Assembly (NCBI RefSeq): GCF_032842345.1
Contig: NZ_WBKO01000003.1
Coordinates: 1 to 64,000 of the forward strand
Length of the DNA stretch: 64,000 nt
Direction of reading: 5' to 3'
From: Methanoculleus caldifontis
GTDB taxonomy: Archaea; Halobacteriota; Methanomicrobia; Methanomicrobiales; Methanoculleaceae
Positions 30,359 through 37,687 of the stretch are shown piece by piece. The notes under the pieces are model-generated. The model was not told the origin of the DNA. It made no database searches and saw only the letters and a program-made list of their open reading frames with translations. The position numbers were made by a program, and so were the translations under genes. The stretch's first letter is position 1; each line of letters opens with the position of its first letter.

Positions 30359-31324
30359 TCAGGGCGACCGGGGGGCCCGCTCGACACCGCTGCCGATCAA
30401 CCCCGACGCGACGATGGGGAGCGCGATCGTGGCGTCGCAGAAACACTGGACGCGCGGGCACGCCGGCGCCTCCTTGCCCCAGCTGATCGCCTCTTCAAAC
30501 GTGCACCCGGAGAGCCCGCCCCAGTGGGGGGCGTCGGTGGTGTACTGGATGGCGTAGGCGTGGCCGCCGAGGTGCTGCTCGTGGATCGAGGCGATGACCT
30601 GGGTCTGCTGGATGAAGTTCTTCGGGACGCCGCCGCCGACGTAGATGACCCCGGTCTTCTTCGACTCCTCGACCATCCGCGTGATCTCGTCGGTGTCGGC
30701 GAGCTGGTCGATGTCGACGTCGACCCCGCGCCGGCGGGCCATGACGAGGCCGATCCCGATGGAGGAGTCGCCGAGGGCGGGGATGAAGATCGGGACGCCG
30801 TACTCGGCGCAGGTGGCGACGAGCGACTGGCCTTCCGGCCGCCGTTCGCGGAGCCACTCCCCGAGGAGCCGGATGAACTCGCGCGACGAGCCCCTGAACG
30901 GTGCAATCTCGTCGGCGAACTTCGAGATCTCGGCGTCGATGCCCCTGAACTCCTCTTCATACGCGAAGACGTCGTAGATGCGGTCGATCCCCTTCTCGAG
31001 AAGCGCGGCATCGTCGGCGTGGTGGTGGCCGAGGTAGTGGCGGACGCCGAGGTGCTCGCAGGTGTCGTGGAAGATGTTTGCGCCCGTCGAGACCAGGACG
31101 TCGATGTAGCGGTGCCTGACGAGTTCGATCAGGATGTTCTGCATACCTGCCGGGATCATCGCTCCCGACAGCCCCATGAAGATCGTGCAGTCCGGATCTC
31201 TGACCATCCCGGTCCAGATGCCGAGCGACTCCCCGAGCTTTCGCCCCTGAAAGCCGGTCTTGCTCATAGACTCAAGGAGTGCCGTTACATCCCTGTTCGG
31301 TTTGACTGGCTGCGTTGGTTTCAT
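30359..31324 (-). CDS. deoxyhypusine synthase
   Basis: NAD-dependent enzyme, 321 aa, that moves the aminobutyl group of spermidine onto the hypusine lysine of aIF5A. FMGLSGAMIPAG, STGANIFHDT, the WGGLSGCTFEEAISWGK block and GGGVPKNF with the catalytic lysine are all present. It stands alone; the translation factor itself is not nearby. The start ATG is clear and no alternative is needed. Confidence 0.94.
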   Translation of the reverse strand: MKPTQPVKPNRDVTALLESMSKTGFQGRKLGESLGIWTGMVRDPDCTIFMGLSGAMIPAGMQNILIELVRHRYIDVLVSTGANIFHDTCEHLGVRHYLGHHHADDAALLEKGIDRIYDVFAYEEEFRGIDAEISKFADEIAPFRGSSREFIRLLGEWLRERRPEGQSLVATCAEYGVPIFIPALGDSSIGIGLVMARRRGVDVDIDQLADTDEITRMVEESKKTGVIYVGGGVPKNFIQQTQVIASIHEQHLGGHAYAIQYTTDAPHWGGLSGCTFEEAISWGKEAPACPRVQCFCDATIALPIVASGLIGSGVERAPRSP

Positions 31325-31567: not shown

Positions 31568-31855
31568 TTCGCACCTGGCGGTGCTCATGCTCGCTTTGCT
31601 CGCAAGTCGCACCTCCGGTGCTCCAACTCCGCTCCGCAGGAGCGTCGTTCTTCGAAGCCTGAGGGCTTCTCATGCTCACTTCGTTCACGCTTCGAAGCCT
31701 GAGGGCTTCTCATGCTCACTTCGTTCACGCTTCGAAGCCTGAGGGCTTCTCATGCTCACTTCGTTCACGCTTCGAAGCCTGAGGGCTTCTCATGCTCGCT
31801 TTGCTCGCACTTCGCACCTGACGGTGCTCATGCTCCTGCCCTGCAGGCAGTCGCA
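31568..31855. repeat. tandem array of hairpin modules, 40-bp period
   Basis: Four units start at 31651, 31691, 31731 and 31771 with an exact 40-bp period. Each begins TTCGAAGCCTGAGGGCTTC, a hairpin GAAGCC-TGAG-GGCTTC, followed by TCATGCTCACTTCGTTCACG. The fourth unit diverges in its second half. Related modules with other stems flank it at 31568, 31607 and 31811, for example GCACC-TGGC-GGTGC, GCACC-TCC-GGTGC and GCACC-TGAC-GGTGC. The array is bracketed by 14-bp direct repeats CTTCGCGTTCTTCG (31558-31571 and 31856-31869). Confidence 0.9.
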
Positions 31856-32120: not shown

Positions 32121-32903
32121 TCACAGGGCCTGGACAAGCGAGTTCCGGGTCACGAGGCCGGCAATTTTGCCGTTCTGCATGATCGGGACGGAGCTGATGC
32201 TCTTCTTGAGCATCAGGTCGATGACGTCGGAGACGTCCGTGCTCGCATCCATCGAGATCAGGGGCGAGGTCATGATGTCCCGCACCAGGAGGTTCCGGAT
32301 CCGGTAGTCCTGGTGGGTCCCCTCCACGAGGTCCTTGATGGCGTGGAGCGCCTTTGCGACGTCGGTCTCCGTGACGATACCGAGAACGGTGTCGCCGTCC
32401 TCGACGATGAACCGGTTGATCTCGTTGTCGAGCATCCTCCGGCGGAGGTGGACGGCCCGCTCCTCGACCTGGATGGTGTGCACCGGCTCCATGACGTCCA
32501 GGGTGCCGCCGGCCGGCCGGAGCACCTTCAGGAGGTCCCCTGCAGTCACCTGCCCGATCAGGCGGTGGTCGGCGTCCAGCACCACAACGAGTTTGTAGCG
32601 CTGGAGCAGCGGCACCAGGACGTCGATGCCCTGGTCCGGGTATGCGGAGGTGAAGTTCTCCTCGACCGTGTTCGCGACATGGATGGATGTGGCTTTCAGC
32701 GCCTGGGTCTTCCTGCTCCCGAGCGTCTCGGCGATAGCCGCCCTCGACGTGGTGCCGATGACCGCGCCGTTATTGGTCACGATCAGCGGGTCGACACCCT
32801 CGCCGAGCATCTTATCGAGCGCTTCGCTGATAAAGGCGGATTTTGCGATGGTGACGGGTTTTGCCATCACGTCCTTGACAAGTAACTGAAATTTCTCGCT
32901 CAT
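32121..32903 (-). CDS. CBS-domain protein (four CBS)
   Basis: Cytoplasmic protein of 260 aa built only of four CBS motifs, two Bateman modules. Repeats are recognised by DVMAKPVTIAKS, the PLIVTNNGAVIGTTS type strand-helix, IGQVTAGDLLK, VLGIVTETDVAKAL and IMTSPLISMD/GLVTRNSLV. Such modules bind adenosine nucleotides or S-adenosyl compounds and regulate partners, but no partner domain is fused. Last gene of the five-gene CBS operon, overlapping the previous gene by 4 nt. Confidence 0.92.
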   Translation of the reverse strand: MSEKFQLLVKDVMAKPVTIAKSAFISEALDKMLGEGVDPLIVTNNGAVIGTTSRAAIAETLGSRKTQALKATSIHVANTVEENFTSAYPDQGIDVLVPLLQRYKLVVVLDADHRLIGQVTAGDLLKVLRPAGGTLDVMEPVHTIQVEERAVHLRRRMLDNEINRFIVEDGDTVLGIVTETDVAKALHAIKDLVEGTHQDYRIRNLLVRDIMTSPLISMDASTDVSDVIDLMLKKSISSVPIMQNGKIAGLVTRNSLVQAL

Positions 32904-33739
32904 TTTGCCACTTCCTTGATGATATCATCTCTCTTGAGCATGCCCCGCATATCGTCGCCCTCCGTGACGACGAGGCTGTTGATGCCGTTCTCAAGCATCA
33001 GCCCGACCGCATCCTGGAGGGACGCGTCGGGACGGATGGTGACGACCGGGCGGCTCATGATGTCCTCTGCGACTGCCGATACCTCTACGACGTACCTGAA
33101 GCGTTTCTGGCCTGCCGGCTCCTCCTTCCGGAGGTGCGTCACATCCCTGCGGGGCAGGTTCGTCCGCTCGTCCTGGTACTCGTAGAATGCAAGGTTACTC
33201 TCAGTGATAATGCCCGCAAGGCTACCATTGTCGTTAACAACAATAAGTTTATCGTTTTTTCCCTTAATCGTGTCAATGACGTGGTCTAACGAGTGATAGC
33301 GGTTCACCGTGGCCGCATCTTCCATGGTCTCGTCGACCCGGGCGGAGAGCCCTCCCACGTGGGCCGACCGCATGACGTCCCTCTTCGTCACGATGCCGAC
33401 CACCTTCCCCTCTTCGACGACCGGCAGCCCCGAGATGTCGCGGTCGAGCATCGTCGCCGCAATGGTCCGGACGCTGGTCTCCGGCGCGACGGTGATCACC
33501 CCCTGTGCCATCAGGATACTGACCGGGATCCGGTCGATCGGGCGCCGCCGCCACATCGGCTCCGTCTGCCTGAGTCGGTAGGCGATATCCTTCTTGGTGA
33601 GGATACCCTTCAGTTCGTCTCCTTCCATCACCGGCAGCCTCGATACGCGGTGCTTCAGCATCAGCCGCCGCGCGTAGGCGACGTTGTCGCCCGGTGCAAC
33701 GACGTACACCGGTGCGGACATCACATCTATGGCACGCAT
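32900..33739 (-). CDS. CBS-domain protein (four CBS)
   Basis: Second-to-last gene of the CBS operon, 279 aa. Four CBS motifs are visible: DVMSAPVYVVAPGDNV...GILTKKDIAYR, ITVAPETSVRTIAA...GIVTKRDVMRSA, a degenerate third with IIVV-like KLIVVNDNGSLAGIITESNL, and IMSRPVVTIRPDASL...MLKRDDIIKE. No catalytic domain. GAGGAG lies upstream of the ATG. It lies 7 bp behind its upstream neighbour. Confidence 0.92.
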   Translation of the reverse strand: MRAIDVMSAPVYVVAPGDNVAYARRLMLKHRVSRLPVMEGDELKGILTKKDIAYRLRQTEPMWRRRPIDRIPVSILMAQGVITVAPETSVRTIAATMLDRDISGLPVVEEGKVVGIVTKRDVMRSAHVGGLSARVDETMEDAATVNRYHSLDHVIDTIKGKNDKLIVVNDNGSLAGIITESNLAFYEYQDERTNLPRRDVTHLRKEEPAGQKRFRYVVEVSAVAEDIMSRPVVTIRPDASLQDAVGLMLENGINSLVVTEGDDMRGMLKRDDIIKEVAK

Positions 33740-33746
33740 GCTCTTC

Positions 33747-34697
33747 TCACTCCTCGGAAAATGCTTTCACAAGGTCGTACTCCGTCACGAGCCCGACGAG
33801 GTGGGCGTCTTCGATGACGGGCAGCGCCCCGACGCGCCGCCGGATCATATCGACGGCAATCTCGTGGATGTTCCGGTCCGGCGTGGTGGTGTGGAGTTCT
33901 CCTGAGAGGAGCGACCGCACCGGCGTTCCCATCACCTCGGCGGAGTCGCCGGTCGTCAGCCGCTCAAAGACCTTGCCCTTCCCGAGGTAGGTCATGATAT
34001 CGGTGGCGGTGACGATCCCGCAGAGGACGTCGTCAGCAACGACCGGGAGTCGCCGGAACCGGCACTTCACCATCTCCTTGCAGACGCTCTCGATCGAGGC
34101 GTTGGGGTTCGTGACCCGGACCGAGGCCCTCATGACATCTTCGACCTTGCGGGTCGAGTTCTCGGTGGTGAGTACCCTGAGCACGTCACGCTCGGTCACG
34201 ATGCCTTTTAAGTCCTCCTCCCCGTTGACGATGGGGATCCCGCCGATATTCCGGTTGATGATGACGTCGACGGCGTCGGCGATGCTCCCGGTGACGGGCA
34301 TGGTGACCAGCTGCGGGGTCATGATCTCGCGCAGCCCCTCGTTGATGGCCGCAAGGAAGTTCCCCCCGTGCTTCACCTGTACCAGGTTGAACTTGTCGCC
34401 GCCGCCCATGAAGTTGATGATATCGCCGACGGTCACGATCCCCCGAAGGCGGTGGGTCCCGGCGTCGACGACCGGCAGCCTGCGGAACCCTTCGCGAGTC
34501 ATGATCTCGACCGCCTGGATGATCGGGGTGGTCTGTTGCGCCGTCACGACGGAGCGCGTCGCGATCGCCATGATCTCGCCCTCGTTCCCGGCTATCCGTG
34601 TCTTGAAGTTGACAGGCCCGCGATCGCGTCTGCCCGGCATCTTCAGGAGCCTGTCGGCCGGGTTTCTCTCAGCGTTATTGTTGTTCGGTTGCATCAT
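33747..34697 (-). CDS. CBS-domain protein (four CBS)
   Basis: Protein of 316 aa with a polar, basic N-terminal tail of about 40 residues (NNNN, GRRDRGP) and four CBS motifs, ending GLVTEYDLVKAFSEE. Motifs such as RLRGIVTVGDIINFMGGG, LKGIVTERDVLRVL and LCGIVTATDIMTYLGKG are well conserved, so nucleotide binding is likely. The tail could bind nucleic acid, but this is only a guess. Two ATGs start it (34697, 34694) behind GAGGAGTGAT. Confidence 0.92.
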   Translation of the reverse strand: MMQPNNNNAERNPADRLLKMPGRRDRGPVNFKTRIAGNEGEIMAIATRSVVTAQQTTPIIQAVEIMTREGFRRLPVVDAGTHRLRGIVTVGDIINFMGGGDKFNLVQVKHGGNFLAAINEGLREIMTPQLVTMPVTGSIADAVDVIINRNIGGIPIVNGEEDLKGIVTERDVLRVLTTENSTRKVEDVMRASVRVTNPNASIESVCKEMVKCRFRRLPVVADDVLCGIVTATDIMTYLGKGKVFERLTTGDSAEVMGTPVRSLLSGELHTTTPDRNIHEIAVDMIRRRVGALPVIEDAHLVGLVTEYDLVKAFSEE

Positions 34698-34748
34698 ATC
34701 ACTCCTCTGGAAGTATTCCTCTGGAAGTTATGGCACCCGGAGAAAAAT

Positions 34749-35504
34749 TCAACGGGTGAAGCTGCTCAGAACATCGTGACGGTCGATGACGCCGACGAGA
34801 TGCCTCCGCTCGTCGATGACGGGGAGGAGGCTGATGTCGTGTTCGACCATCAGCCTGCTCGCCGTCGCGATCGGGTCATCCGGCGTCACCGAGATGACGG
34901 GCGTCGTCATCACCCGCTCCACGGTGGTATCTGCCTGATTCTTCACCGTGCTGCGGATGCCCCCGGCGCGCAGGAGGTCCCGGCGGGAGAGGAGTCCGAT
35001 GACCTCCTTCTTCTGCACCACCGGGAACGCGACAAAACCGCTCGTGACGATCAGGCTGTAGATCTTGAGGACGGGGTCCTCCGGCGTGCAGGTGACGGGG
35101 TCCTGCGACATGACATCCCCGACCCTGCCGGTGATCGCGTGGCGGGAGATCAGGACGGGAAAGAGCTCCGAGAAGAGAACCCCGCCGAGGAGCGCCCCGT
35201 CTTCATCGACGATCGCAGCGCTGTTCGTGCGGGCGTCCAGTATGGCGAGGCCGACCTCGTGGAGGGAGGTCTCCGGGGCGACCGTCGCGGCCTCCCGGAC
35301 GAACCCCCCGATGGTGACGTTCGACTTGGTGTCCACCACCCGGAGAACATCGGAGATATCGAGATAGCCTTTCAGGCGGTTCCGCTCATCCACGACGAAG
35401 AGCTCGCGAAAGACGTCGTCCCGCAGGACGCTCCGTGCTTTCGTGGCATACTCGTCGTAACGCAGGGTGGGAATGACCCTCATGAGGTTTGTGGCCACTT
35501 TCAT
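34749..35504 (-). CDS. CBS-domain protein (four CBS)
   Basis: Protein of 251 aa with four CBS motifs, including FVVDERNRLKGYLDISDVLRV, AIVDEDGALLGGVLFSEL, FPVVQKKEVIGLLSRRDLL and LPVIDERRHLVGVIDRHDVL. The start at MKVATNL overlaps the stop of the preceding gene by 4 nt. A much longer reading frame continues upstream but its extra part is antisense-free arginine-rich frame shadow of the neighbouring gene and is rejected. Confidence 0.92.
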   Translation of the reverse strand: MKVATNLMRVIPTLRYDEYATKARSVLRDDVFRELFVVDERNRLKGYLDISDVLRVVDTKSNVTIGGFVREAATVAPETSLHEVGLAILDARTNSAAIVDEDGALLGGVLFSELFPVLISRHAITGRVGDVMSQDPVTCTPEDPVLKIYSLIVTSGFVAFPVVQKKEVIGLLSRRDLLRAGGIRSTVKNQADTTVERVMTTPVISVTPDDPIATASRLMVEHDISLLPVIDERRHLVGVIDRHDVLSSFTR

Positions 35505-36064
35505 AGCAACTGCTCCTCCTCCCGACAGACGGGGCAGAGCATAAGGTTGTCGACCCTTGACAGGTTGTCCGACATATCCCCGCACCGGTCGCAGACGCCC
35601 ATCGCGTACTCCTCCTCGCGGTTGATCTCGATGAGATCCGCGAGCAGTTCGTTCACCTCGGTTGCGACGGTGAGGATATCGCGGACCGTGACGATCCCGA
35701 TGACCATCTGGTTCTCGACGACAGGGAGCCTGCGGACACGGTGCTTCACCATCATCGCCGCAGCATCTCCGACGAGCCTGTCGGATCCGATCGTGATAAG
35801 CGGGGTGCTCATGATCTCGCTGACCTGAATGCTGCTCGGCTTTATGTCTTTTGCCACCACTTTGCAGTTGATATCCTCCTCCGTAACGATCCCGGTGGGC
35901 AGGTTGTTTTGCAGTACAATACAACTCCCGACCTCGTCGCGGCACATGATCTGTGCCGCCCCGGCGACGGTCTCGCCCACATCGACGGTGGTTGGATGGC
36001 TCTGCATGACCTCCCTGACTGGTACGCGTGTCTCGAAGTGGATCGCATCGCTATTATTCATCAT
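35501..36064 (-). CDS. CBS-domain protein with zinc ribbon
   Basis: First gene of the CBS operon, 187 aa. Two CBS motifs (about residues 15-75 and 80-140; TGIVTEEDINCK and IGIVTVRDILTV) are followed by a C-terminal zinc ribbon with CDRCG and CPVC. This combination resembles CBS-zinc ribbon regulators of archaea; the ribbon may contact DNA, RNA or protein. AGGAG stands six bases upstream of the first ATG. A TATA box lies at 36131-36140 on this strand. Confidence 0.9.
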   Translation of the reverse strand: MMNNSDAIHFETRVPVREVMQSHPTTVDVGETVAGAAQIMCRDEVGSCIVLQNNLPTGIVTEEDINCKVVAKDIKPSSIQVSEIMSTPLITIGSDRLVGDAAAMMVKHRVRRLPVVENQMVIGIVTVRDILTVATEVNELLADLIEINREEEYAMGVCDRCGDMSDNLSRVDNLMLCPVCREEEQLL

Positions 36065-36130
36065 GGGATTCTCCTAATCTGGTCGCTATAAGGTCCGATT
36101 CTCCAGGTGCAAGTGTATCTAGGTTTCAAC

Positions 36131-36140
36131 ACTATAAAAG
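36131..36140 (-). promoter_or_regulatory. TATA box of the CBS operon
   Basis: CTTTTATAGT read leftward, about 70 nt upstream of the first ATG. It shares the intergenic gap with the rightward TATA-rich segment at 36201-36217. Confidence 0.5.
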
Positions 36141-36200
36141 AATTCTCACGCTCGGGAATTCCCATTTTCTCCGATTTCCGGAGCATGCGCCGGATGGAAC

Positions 36201-36217
36201 ATATAATTATATTTATT
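36201..36217 (+). promoter_or_regulatory. AT-rich promoter of the GTPase cassette
   Basis: ATATAATTATATTTATT lies about 56-72 nt before the ATG at 36273, in an otherwise GC-rich gap. It is the likely rightward TATA box, giving a short leader. Confidence 0.55.
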
Positions 36218-36272
36218 CCCGGGTTCCATACTCACCTGGGTGTAGGTGAATCGGCCTATCCGAGGGAGCTTA

Positions 36273-36914
36273 ATGACGTTCTTAGTTCGTACGAAACAGA
36301 AGATCTCGCGGCTCTTGAGTGCTTTCTTTAAGAAGCGGACCTGCCGCATCGGGATATACGGGCCTCCCAATGCAGGCAAGACGACGCTCGCGAATAGAAT
36401 TGTCCGTGACTGGGCCGGCGATGCGGTCGGGCCGGTCAGTGAGGTGCCCCACGAGACCCGCCGCGTGCGGCGCAAGGAGGACATCACCATCAAGGCCCAG
36501 AACGGCAACTCGGTCACCATGGATATCGTCGATACGCCGGGCGTGACGACCAAGATCGACTACAACGAGTTCGTCGAGTACGGTATCGAGAAGGACGAGG
36601 CGATCAAGCGGGCACGCGAGGCGACCGAGGGGGTGGCCGAGGCGATGCACTGGCTCCGCGAGGATATCGACGGCGTCATCTACATGCTTGATTCGACGCA
36701 GGATCCGTTCCAGCAGGTGAACATCATGCTGGTGGGGATCATCGAGAGCCGGAAACTCCCGGTCCTGATCGTCGCAAACAAGAACGATCTGCCCGACGCG
36801 TCTCCTGCGCGGATCAAGAGCGCGTTTCCCCAGCATCCCGTGATCGCGATATCCGGTCTCGAAGGGACCAACGTGGACGAGTTGTACGAGAAGATGACAT
36901 CGTATTTCGGGTGA
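36273..36914 (+). CDS. Era-like small GTPase (ArvA/OapA type)
   Basis: Stand-alone GTPase, 213 aa. G1 GIYGPPNAGKTTLA (about residues 27-40), G3 DIVDTPGV, G4 NKND (around 170) and an ISG near G5 are present. A hydrophobic, basic N terminus (ISRLLSAFFKK) may bind membrane. With the next two genes it matches the euryarchaeal cassette whose GTPase has been reported to drive extracellular vesicle formation in haloarchaea (ArvA, formerly OapA); that function here is inferred. GAGGGA precedes the ATG; a GTG nine codons upstream is in frame. Confidence 0.85.
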   Translation: MTFLVRTKQKISRLLSAFFKKRTCRIGIYGPPNAGKTTLANRIVRDWAGDAVGPVSEVPHETRRVRRKEDITIKAQNGNSVTMDIVDTPGVTTKIDYNEFVEYGIEKDEAIKRAREATEGVAEAMHWLREDIDGVIYMLDSTQDPFQQVNIMLVGIIESRKLPVLIVANKNDLPDASPARIKSAFPQHPVIAISGLEGTNVDELYEKMTSYFG

Positions 36915-37289
36915 ATGGAGATGATACAGGGTGTACAAATTGACCTGATCTCGGCAGAACGCCTCGATCGGCTGACGGCGATGGAGAAGGTCCGCCTGAT
37001 CCTCGACGATGTGATGGAAGGGAACATCGTTGTCCTGGAGAAGGGCCTTGCGCCTGACGAGCAGAGCAAGCTCATCGAGATCACGATGCGTGAGATCGCG
37101 CCGGACGGGTTCTCCGGGATCGAGATGGAGACCTACCCGGTCAAAGAGGCGTCAACCGGGTTTTTCGGGAAACTTCTCGGCGGGAAGCGCTCCGAGACCC
37201 GCCTGACCGTGATCGGGCCCGCAAACCAGCTCAAGACGCTCAAGAAGGAGAAAGATCTCATCAGTGCGTGGGTCTCTTCCTCGCGGTGA
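36915..37289 (+). CDS. DUF2073 protein (ArvB/OapB type)
   Basis: Small protein of 124 aa placed directly after the GTPase stop, with no gap. It shows the DUF2073 pattern: GVQIDLISAERL at the start, SKLIEITMREIAPDGFSGIE, and VKEASTGFFGKLLGGKRSETRLTVIGP. No enzyme motif. It is the constant partner of the upstream GTPase and downstream zinc ribbon in euryarchaea. Confidence 0.82.
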   Translation: MEMIQGVQIDLISAERLDRLTAMEKVRLILDDVMEGNIVVLEKGLAPDEQSKLIEITMREIAPDGFSGIEMETYPVKEASTGFFGKLLGGKRSETRLTVIGPANQLKTLKKEKDLISAWVSSSR

Positions 37290-37312
37290 ACGGGTAGCGG
37301 GGGTGATACACG

Positions 37313-37687
37313 ATGCCTCATAAGTGTACCCAGTGCGGCAGAGAGTTTGAGGACGGCTCGACGAAGATACTGAAAGGGTGTCCGAGTTGCGGCGGCAAGA
37401 AGTTCCTCTACATCCGTGAGGCCGAGCGGCACGACGACGTGCTCAAGGAGAAGACCATCGACGAGATCGCCCGCGAGACGGGGGAGGACGTGCTTGAGGT
37501 CCGCGAGGGCCGGCGGCGGGAGGAGATCGAGGTCTTTGAGCGGATAGAGAGCATCCGGATCCTGGGTCCGGGTTCGTACGAACTGAATCTCGATAAGATG
37601 GCCCGGTCGGACGAGGTCGTCGTCGGGCTGGAGAAGGAGGGGAGATACGTGGTGGATATCCTCTCCATGGCCCGGAAGAAGAAGTGA
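37313..37687 (+). CDS. zinc-ribbon protein (OapC/ArvC type)
   Basis: Protein of 124 aa. The N terminus is a zinc ribbon with CTQCG and CPSCGGKKF (Cys near residues 5, 8, 25 and 28), followed by a charged linker and a C-terminal beta-rich segment GPGSYELNLDKMARSDEVVV. It belongs to the zinc-ribbon family found beside the DUF2073 gene and Era-like GTPase. Its ATG lies 23 bp behind the DUF2073 stop. Confidence 0.83.
   Translation: MPHKCTQCGREFEDGSTKILKGCPSCGGKKFLYIREAERHDDVLKEKTIDEIARETGEDVLEVREGRRREEIEVFERIESIRILGPGSYELNLDKMARSDEVVVGLEKEGRYVVDILSMARKKK

Follow-up and report, generated by a model that had tools for sequence, protein, structure and literature searches.

Within the 64,000-nt window of Methanoculleus caldifontis DNA that was analysed, ORF calling located five consecutive open reading frames on the minus strand at 32121-36064, transcribed in the order A-B-C-D-E, and these are set out below with the features that surround them.

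36064-35501, minus strand: gene A, first gene of the operon, a CBS pair with a four-cysteine zinc ribbon, 187 aa (Pfam)
35504-34749, minus strand: gene B, orthologue of SriA and probably of CM-5, a four-CBS module protein, 251 aa (PDB match)
34697-33747, minus strand: gene C, orthologue of SriB and probably of CM-4, an MJ1225-like four-CBS module, 316 aa (PDB match)
34587..34697, minus strand: N-terminal tail of gene C, residues 1-37, basic and predicted to be disordered
33739-32900, minus strand: gene D, orthologue of SriC and probably of CM-1, a four-CBS module protein, 279 aa (PDB match)
32903-32121, minus strand: gene E, orthologue of SriD and probably of CM-2, a four-CBS module protein, 260 aa (PDB match)
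36065..36245, no strand: intergenic region of 181 bp between the operon and the divergent arvABC/oapABC operon, with TATA-like boxes on both sides
36246-37687, plus strand: arvABC/oapABC operon, encoding a GTPase, OapB (PF09846) and OapC (PF09845)
30359-31324, minus strand: deoxyhypusine synthase, a translation-factor modification enzyme

CBS was the sole Pfam family returned for genes A to E (2, 3, 4, 4 and 4 domains, respectively), with 17 domains above the Pfam cut-off and one degenerate copy in gene B, a putative fourth CBS deduced from the four-CBS homologue of that gene. Two CBS pairs (four CBS) were found in each of genes C, D and E, with gene B holding three and the degenerate fourth, and gene A terminating in a CxxC...CxxC ribbon. 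These 3.9 kb account for 17 of the 45 CBS matches in the whole genome. The A/B and D/E junctions are both 4-nt overlaps (ATGA), while 51 nt separate B from C and 7 nt separate C from D; this spacing, together with a TATA-like element that is conserved ahead of A, suggested that the five genes form a single operon read as one transcript. The original prediction, of one operon comprising five genes with about 18 CBS domains and one zinc ribbon and no enzyme or transporter, was borne out in these respects, with every open reading frame lying where it had been placed.

Searching the sequences against solved structures gave each of genes B to E a different best-matching chain, one-to-one. Gene B matched 9znf chain 4 (E=7.7e-39, or 8.3e-53 with a profile), gene C matched 9znf chain 5 (E=6.5e-70, or 3.3e-99 with a profile), gene D matched 9zni chain 6 (E=2.3e-61), and gene E matched chain 7 of both 9zni (E=4.6e-41) and 9zng (5e-41). 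These 2026 entries, on whose titles our statements about Sri proteins rest, are titled, as returned by a structural comparison of the gene C model, 'M. acetivorans 70S ribosome in complex with SriA and SriB' (9znf) and, for the same 70S particle, 'with SriD' (9zng) and 'with SriC and SriD' (9zni). SriD is the only Sri protein in 9zng, where it is chain 7, which leaves chain 6 as SriC; from their order chain 4 would be SriA and chain 5 SriB, although the two could be swapped. No paper on SriA-D or 9ZNF was found in the literature reached. SriA-SriD of Methanosarcina acetivorans (9ZNF, 9ZNG, 9ZNI) are like B-E in this one-to-one match and in the four-CBS module, but identity is moderate across families, and the Methanoculleus operon opens with gene A.

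A second line of comparison came from the CBS-module families CM-1 to CM-6 defined in PMC13324472, in which a CM-5/4/1/2 gene cluster of environmental methanogens was described as encoding candidate archaeal ribosome-hibernation factors, and in which CM-1 and CM-4 proteins were detected by mass spectrometry in dormant M. acetivorans ribosomes. The gene B profile matched the N-terminal half of Dri (9e6q) and gene D matched its C-terminal half (E=5.4e-20), the PDB titles of 9e6q and 9e7f being those of the Pyrobaculum 50S and 70S ribosome with Dri. Judged from these Dri halves and from gene order, B, C, D and E probably represent CM-5, 4, 1 and 2, and the B-C-D-E order agrees with the published one. 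Dri of Pyrobaculum calidifontis (9E6Q, 9E7F), a CBS-module hibernation factor with an N-terminal half like gene B and a C-terminal half like gene D, is nevertheless one protein of two fused modules, whereas Methanoculleus has separate open reading frames and, in addition, modules C and E and gene A.

HibA, of Thermococcales and others, is like B-E a CBS-module ribosome hibernation factor, but it requires a fused HPF/RaiA domain, whereas A-E contain only CBS in Pfam and neither the genome nor its relatives carry HPF/RaiA. This domain (PF02482), the mark of HibA, was found in none of 61 genomes (Methanoculleus caldifontis and 60 relatives) by a search that was positive in 11 of 14 control genomes, and identity with HibA was rejected on this result. 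Its absence is as expected from the exclusion model, CM-1/2/4/5 being largely exclusive with HibA (PMC13324472). In gene D, CBS1 and CBS2 are joined by a near-invariant WRRRPID loop, in which the W, the second and third R and the D were invariant in 33/33 sequences. The HibA residues that touch the ribosome are not specially conserved (PMC13324472), and therefore sequence conservation cannot prove ribosome binding.

Taken as a whole, we consider it highly likely that this operon represents, in Methanoculleus, the sri (CM-5/4/1/2) locus for ribosome hibernation of archaea. It is very probably another member of an already described system, in which genes B-E are no longer undescribed; the original prediction had called the complex undescribed, a label that falls away for four of the five proteins, with relatives solved on the 70S ribosome and the cluster published (PMC13324472). 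The first gene is the sole part of the locus still undescribed in the literature reached. Presence on the ribosome is known for relatives, from the PDB titles and from the mass spectrometry reported in PMC13324472, and by analogy the Methanoculleus proteins would bind in the same way.

Co-occurrence was surveyed in 110 genomes of the phylum, which are mutually related so that the Fisher values are not independent tests. Wherever both members were present, D and E were adjacent (44/44 genomes), as were B and C (49/49) and, within 5 kb, A and C (72/72). The gene patterns were ABCDE in 40 genomes, A-C only in 21, A only in 15, ABC in 5 and others in 10. Order-level loci examined were collinear as A-B-C-D-E with some losses (of B and D in loci L060-L064, and of D in L053), and ten named genomes, including Methanoculleus, Methanocalculus and Methanospirillum, had the arrangement seen in M. 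caldifontis. The A-B-C-D-E order recurs in other families of the phylum, where two loci of one genus are A-D-E, and because of this recurrence within and beyond the order the arrangement is not due to chance. Where the original prediction had named genes that were not co-conserved as the outcome to count against it, strong co-conservation was found across the 110 genomes. Gene content, orthology, synteny, the pattern of co-loss and the absence of HPF/RaiA are established in this analysis. A second copy of the locus was seen in one genome (L080:7992-9890), where a single unbroken frame of 633 aa encodes both the SriB and the SriC module; this fusion recalls Dri.

Gene A had no close solved homologue in the search of solved structures; its nearest relatives were distant, and in a fold search the alignment covered the CBS pair only. 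In the CBS-rubredoxin-like protein Ta0289 (1PVM, 2QH1) a metal-binding ribbon comes after a CBS pair, as appears to be so in gene A from its CBS pair and four putative metal-binding cysteines, although the two are distant (E about 1e-10). Among 56 sequences from across the phylum, the four cysteines were kept in 55 and the aspartates of both nucleotide sites in all 56, with the [ST]xxD sites largely kept. The published CM survey was restricted to four-CBS modules, leaving out proteins with a single CBS pair (PMC13324472), and gene A lies outside it because it has one CBS pair only. A single 422-aa open frame with two CBS-zinc-ribbon matches (G151:C3:22959-24146) probably reflects duplication of gene A in tandem.

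Whether gene A belongs functionally with its neighbours bears on a separate explanation for this gene alone, compatible with the hibernation reading of B-E, in which gene A, as an ordinary CBS-zinc-ribbon gene, lies upstream by chance and has no functional link to sri. Its homologues are indeed widespread (90/110 genomes), 15 of the 110 genomes hold it without any sri gene, and no mention of it was found in the published sri or CM work reached. We nonetheless regard this explanation as unlikely, as gene A lay no more than 5 kb from gene C in every genome with both, including the 21 of these 72 that hold only A and C and lack B (SriA), D (SriC) and E (SriD), and just one genome had gene C without gene A above threshold. 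This near-constant CBS-zinc-ribbon gene beside SriB is new, as far as the literature reached shows.

The N-terminal tail of gene C provided a further association. It carries the basic, conserved motif ...LLKMPG(K/R)xDRGPVxFK(S/T)R..., and in the AF2 model pLDDT was below 50 over nearly all of residues 1-37, suggesting that the SriB tail is probably disordered. Among the tails listed, the motif occurred in lineages with gene B and was lost in lineages without it (39/46 with gene B vs 1/14 without), the lone match without gene B lying upstream of the only ATG. The correlation between SriA presence and the SriB tail, which is new as far as the literature reached shows, is a lead rather than a test, because the motif was picked after inspection of the data and the B-less genomes belong to a few clades only. 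We tentatively propose, at somewhat less than even likelihood, that gene A is the missing fifth hibernation component, an adenylate-responsive protein that loads, releases or restrains SriB; A and SriB would then form the core of the locus, and SriA would act with SriB through the SriB N-terminal tail, lost where SriA is absent.

The nucleotide sites were considered with a second alternative, that of an AMPK-gamma-like free energy sensor, in which a soluble adenylate-sensing complex of five proteins regulates a separate enzyme or kinase and has no ribosome role. The AF2 model of gene C (pLDDT 82.7) was nearest in fold to MJ1225 of Methanocaldococcus jannaschii (Z 36.2 to 3lfz), titled a putative archaeal homologue of gamma-AMPK; MJ1225 (3KH5, 3LFZ) is a relative of gene C in fold and sequence, its solved chain of 280 aa being without the N-terminal tail of gene C. 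Gene C also kept the [ST]xxD motif in all four CBS domains (the third in 40/51 sequences), and its model has the predicted four-CBS adenylate-binding fold. AMPK-gamma structures themselves scored below MJ1225 (Z about 25, about 17% identity), however, the operon holds no kinase, enzyme or transporter, kinase and beta subunits are absent from the adjacent genes examined, and B-E orthologues have been solved on the 70S ribosome. We judged a free-standing sensor or AMPK-like kinase complex very improbable, down-weighting it on the evidence of the PDB titles.

The [ST]xxD motif was also present in both CBS domains of gene A and in two of gene D, with fewer in B and E, and adenylate binding is plausible for the kept sites, with which it is compatible. 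The AMP/ATP reading of the original prediction stays plausible; HibA showed no clear AMP or ATP effect on ribosome binding (PMC13324472). A free-standing five-protein sensor, as had been predicted, is not indicated, the partner by analogy being the ribosome, probably bound by pairs. Of the proposed hetero-oligomer, hetero-pairs are plausible from the PDB entries with SriA+SriB and SriC+SriD.

Similarly improbable, in our estimation, is regulation of transcription in the manner of HhpR/CM-3, by the CBS modules or by the zinc ribbon that gene A carries. A stand-alone CBS-module regulator is known in HhpR (PMC13324472), to which gene C gave a sub-threshold NCBIfam match, but this reached 85.5 bits at best against a curated cut-off of 520, on which ground HhpR-type regulation was rejected, and the B-E orthologues are ribosome-bound. 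The promoter region bears on the same question. When 23 intergenic sequences of Methanoculleus and its near relatives were aligned, they showed conserved TATA-like boxes on both sides of 36065-36245 and a conserved 25-nt block, AAACCTAGATANACTTGCACCTGGA, 3' of the operon-side box. This block is single-copy in the genome and was not found beyond Methanoculleus and close relatives; it was rejected as a regulon box on both counts, and with no second genomic copy of the block near the operon promoter no regulon is visible.

The weakest alternative, which we consider barely credible, is that the locus works in DNA replication or in the formation of vesicles together with oapABC/arvABC, its divergent neighbour: the two are divergently adjacent in Methanomicrobiales and several other families, and Thermococcales HibA pull-downs yielded replication and recombination proteins (PMC13324472), but oapABC/arvABC is a separate unit, transcribed oppositely, and is not next to the operon in families f8 and f21 or in the A-C-only loci examined. 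The arvABC/oapABC genes, which adjoin the CBS operon in many families, have been tied to vesicle formation in Haloferax (PMC10927574). On the other side, most order-level loci have deoxyhypusine synthase downstream of the operon. At 31650-31835 a 40-bp unit is repeated in tandem (4.7 copies), and this unit is scattered on contigs C1, C2 and C3, with a long regular array at C1:731534-732003.

Returning to the ribosome-hibernation reading, the Sri proteins would most likely settle, once energy or nutrients run low, on functional sites that stand vacant in idle ribosomes, and by analogy with Dri and HibA these sites may be the tRNA/peptidyl-transferase site and the mRNA channel. SriA would load together with SriB, and SriC together with SriD, and the genomic pairs B-C and D-E correspond to the pairs in the PDB titles. 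Again by analogy with Dri and HibA, the Sri proteins may inhibit translation and preserve idle ribosomes, the particle being protected until growth returns. AMP, ADP or ATP in the well-kept sites (all four of SriB, both of gene A and two of SriC) would couple loading or release to the energy state, and from its context gene A most likely responds to nucleotides as a partner or regulator of SriB.

Through the analysis, an anonymous CBS operon becomes a defined and very probable locus of ribosome dormancy in Methanoculleus and its order, in which SriB has as its best-conserved neighbour a zinc-ribbon protein not covered by the published CM survey. If gene A senses adenylates, it would offer a direct experimental handle on how the energy state leads to ribosome shutdown in archaea.
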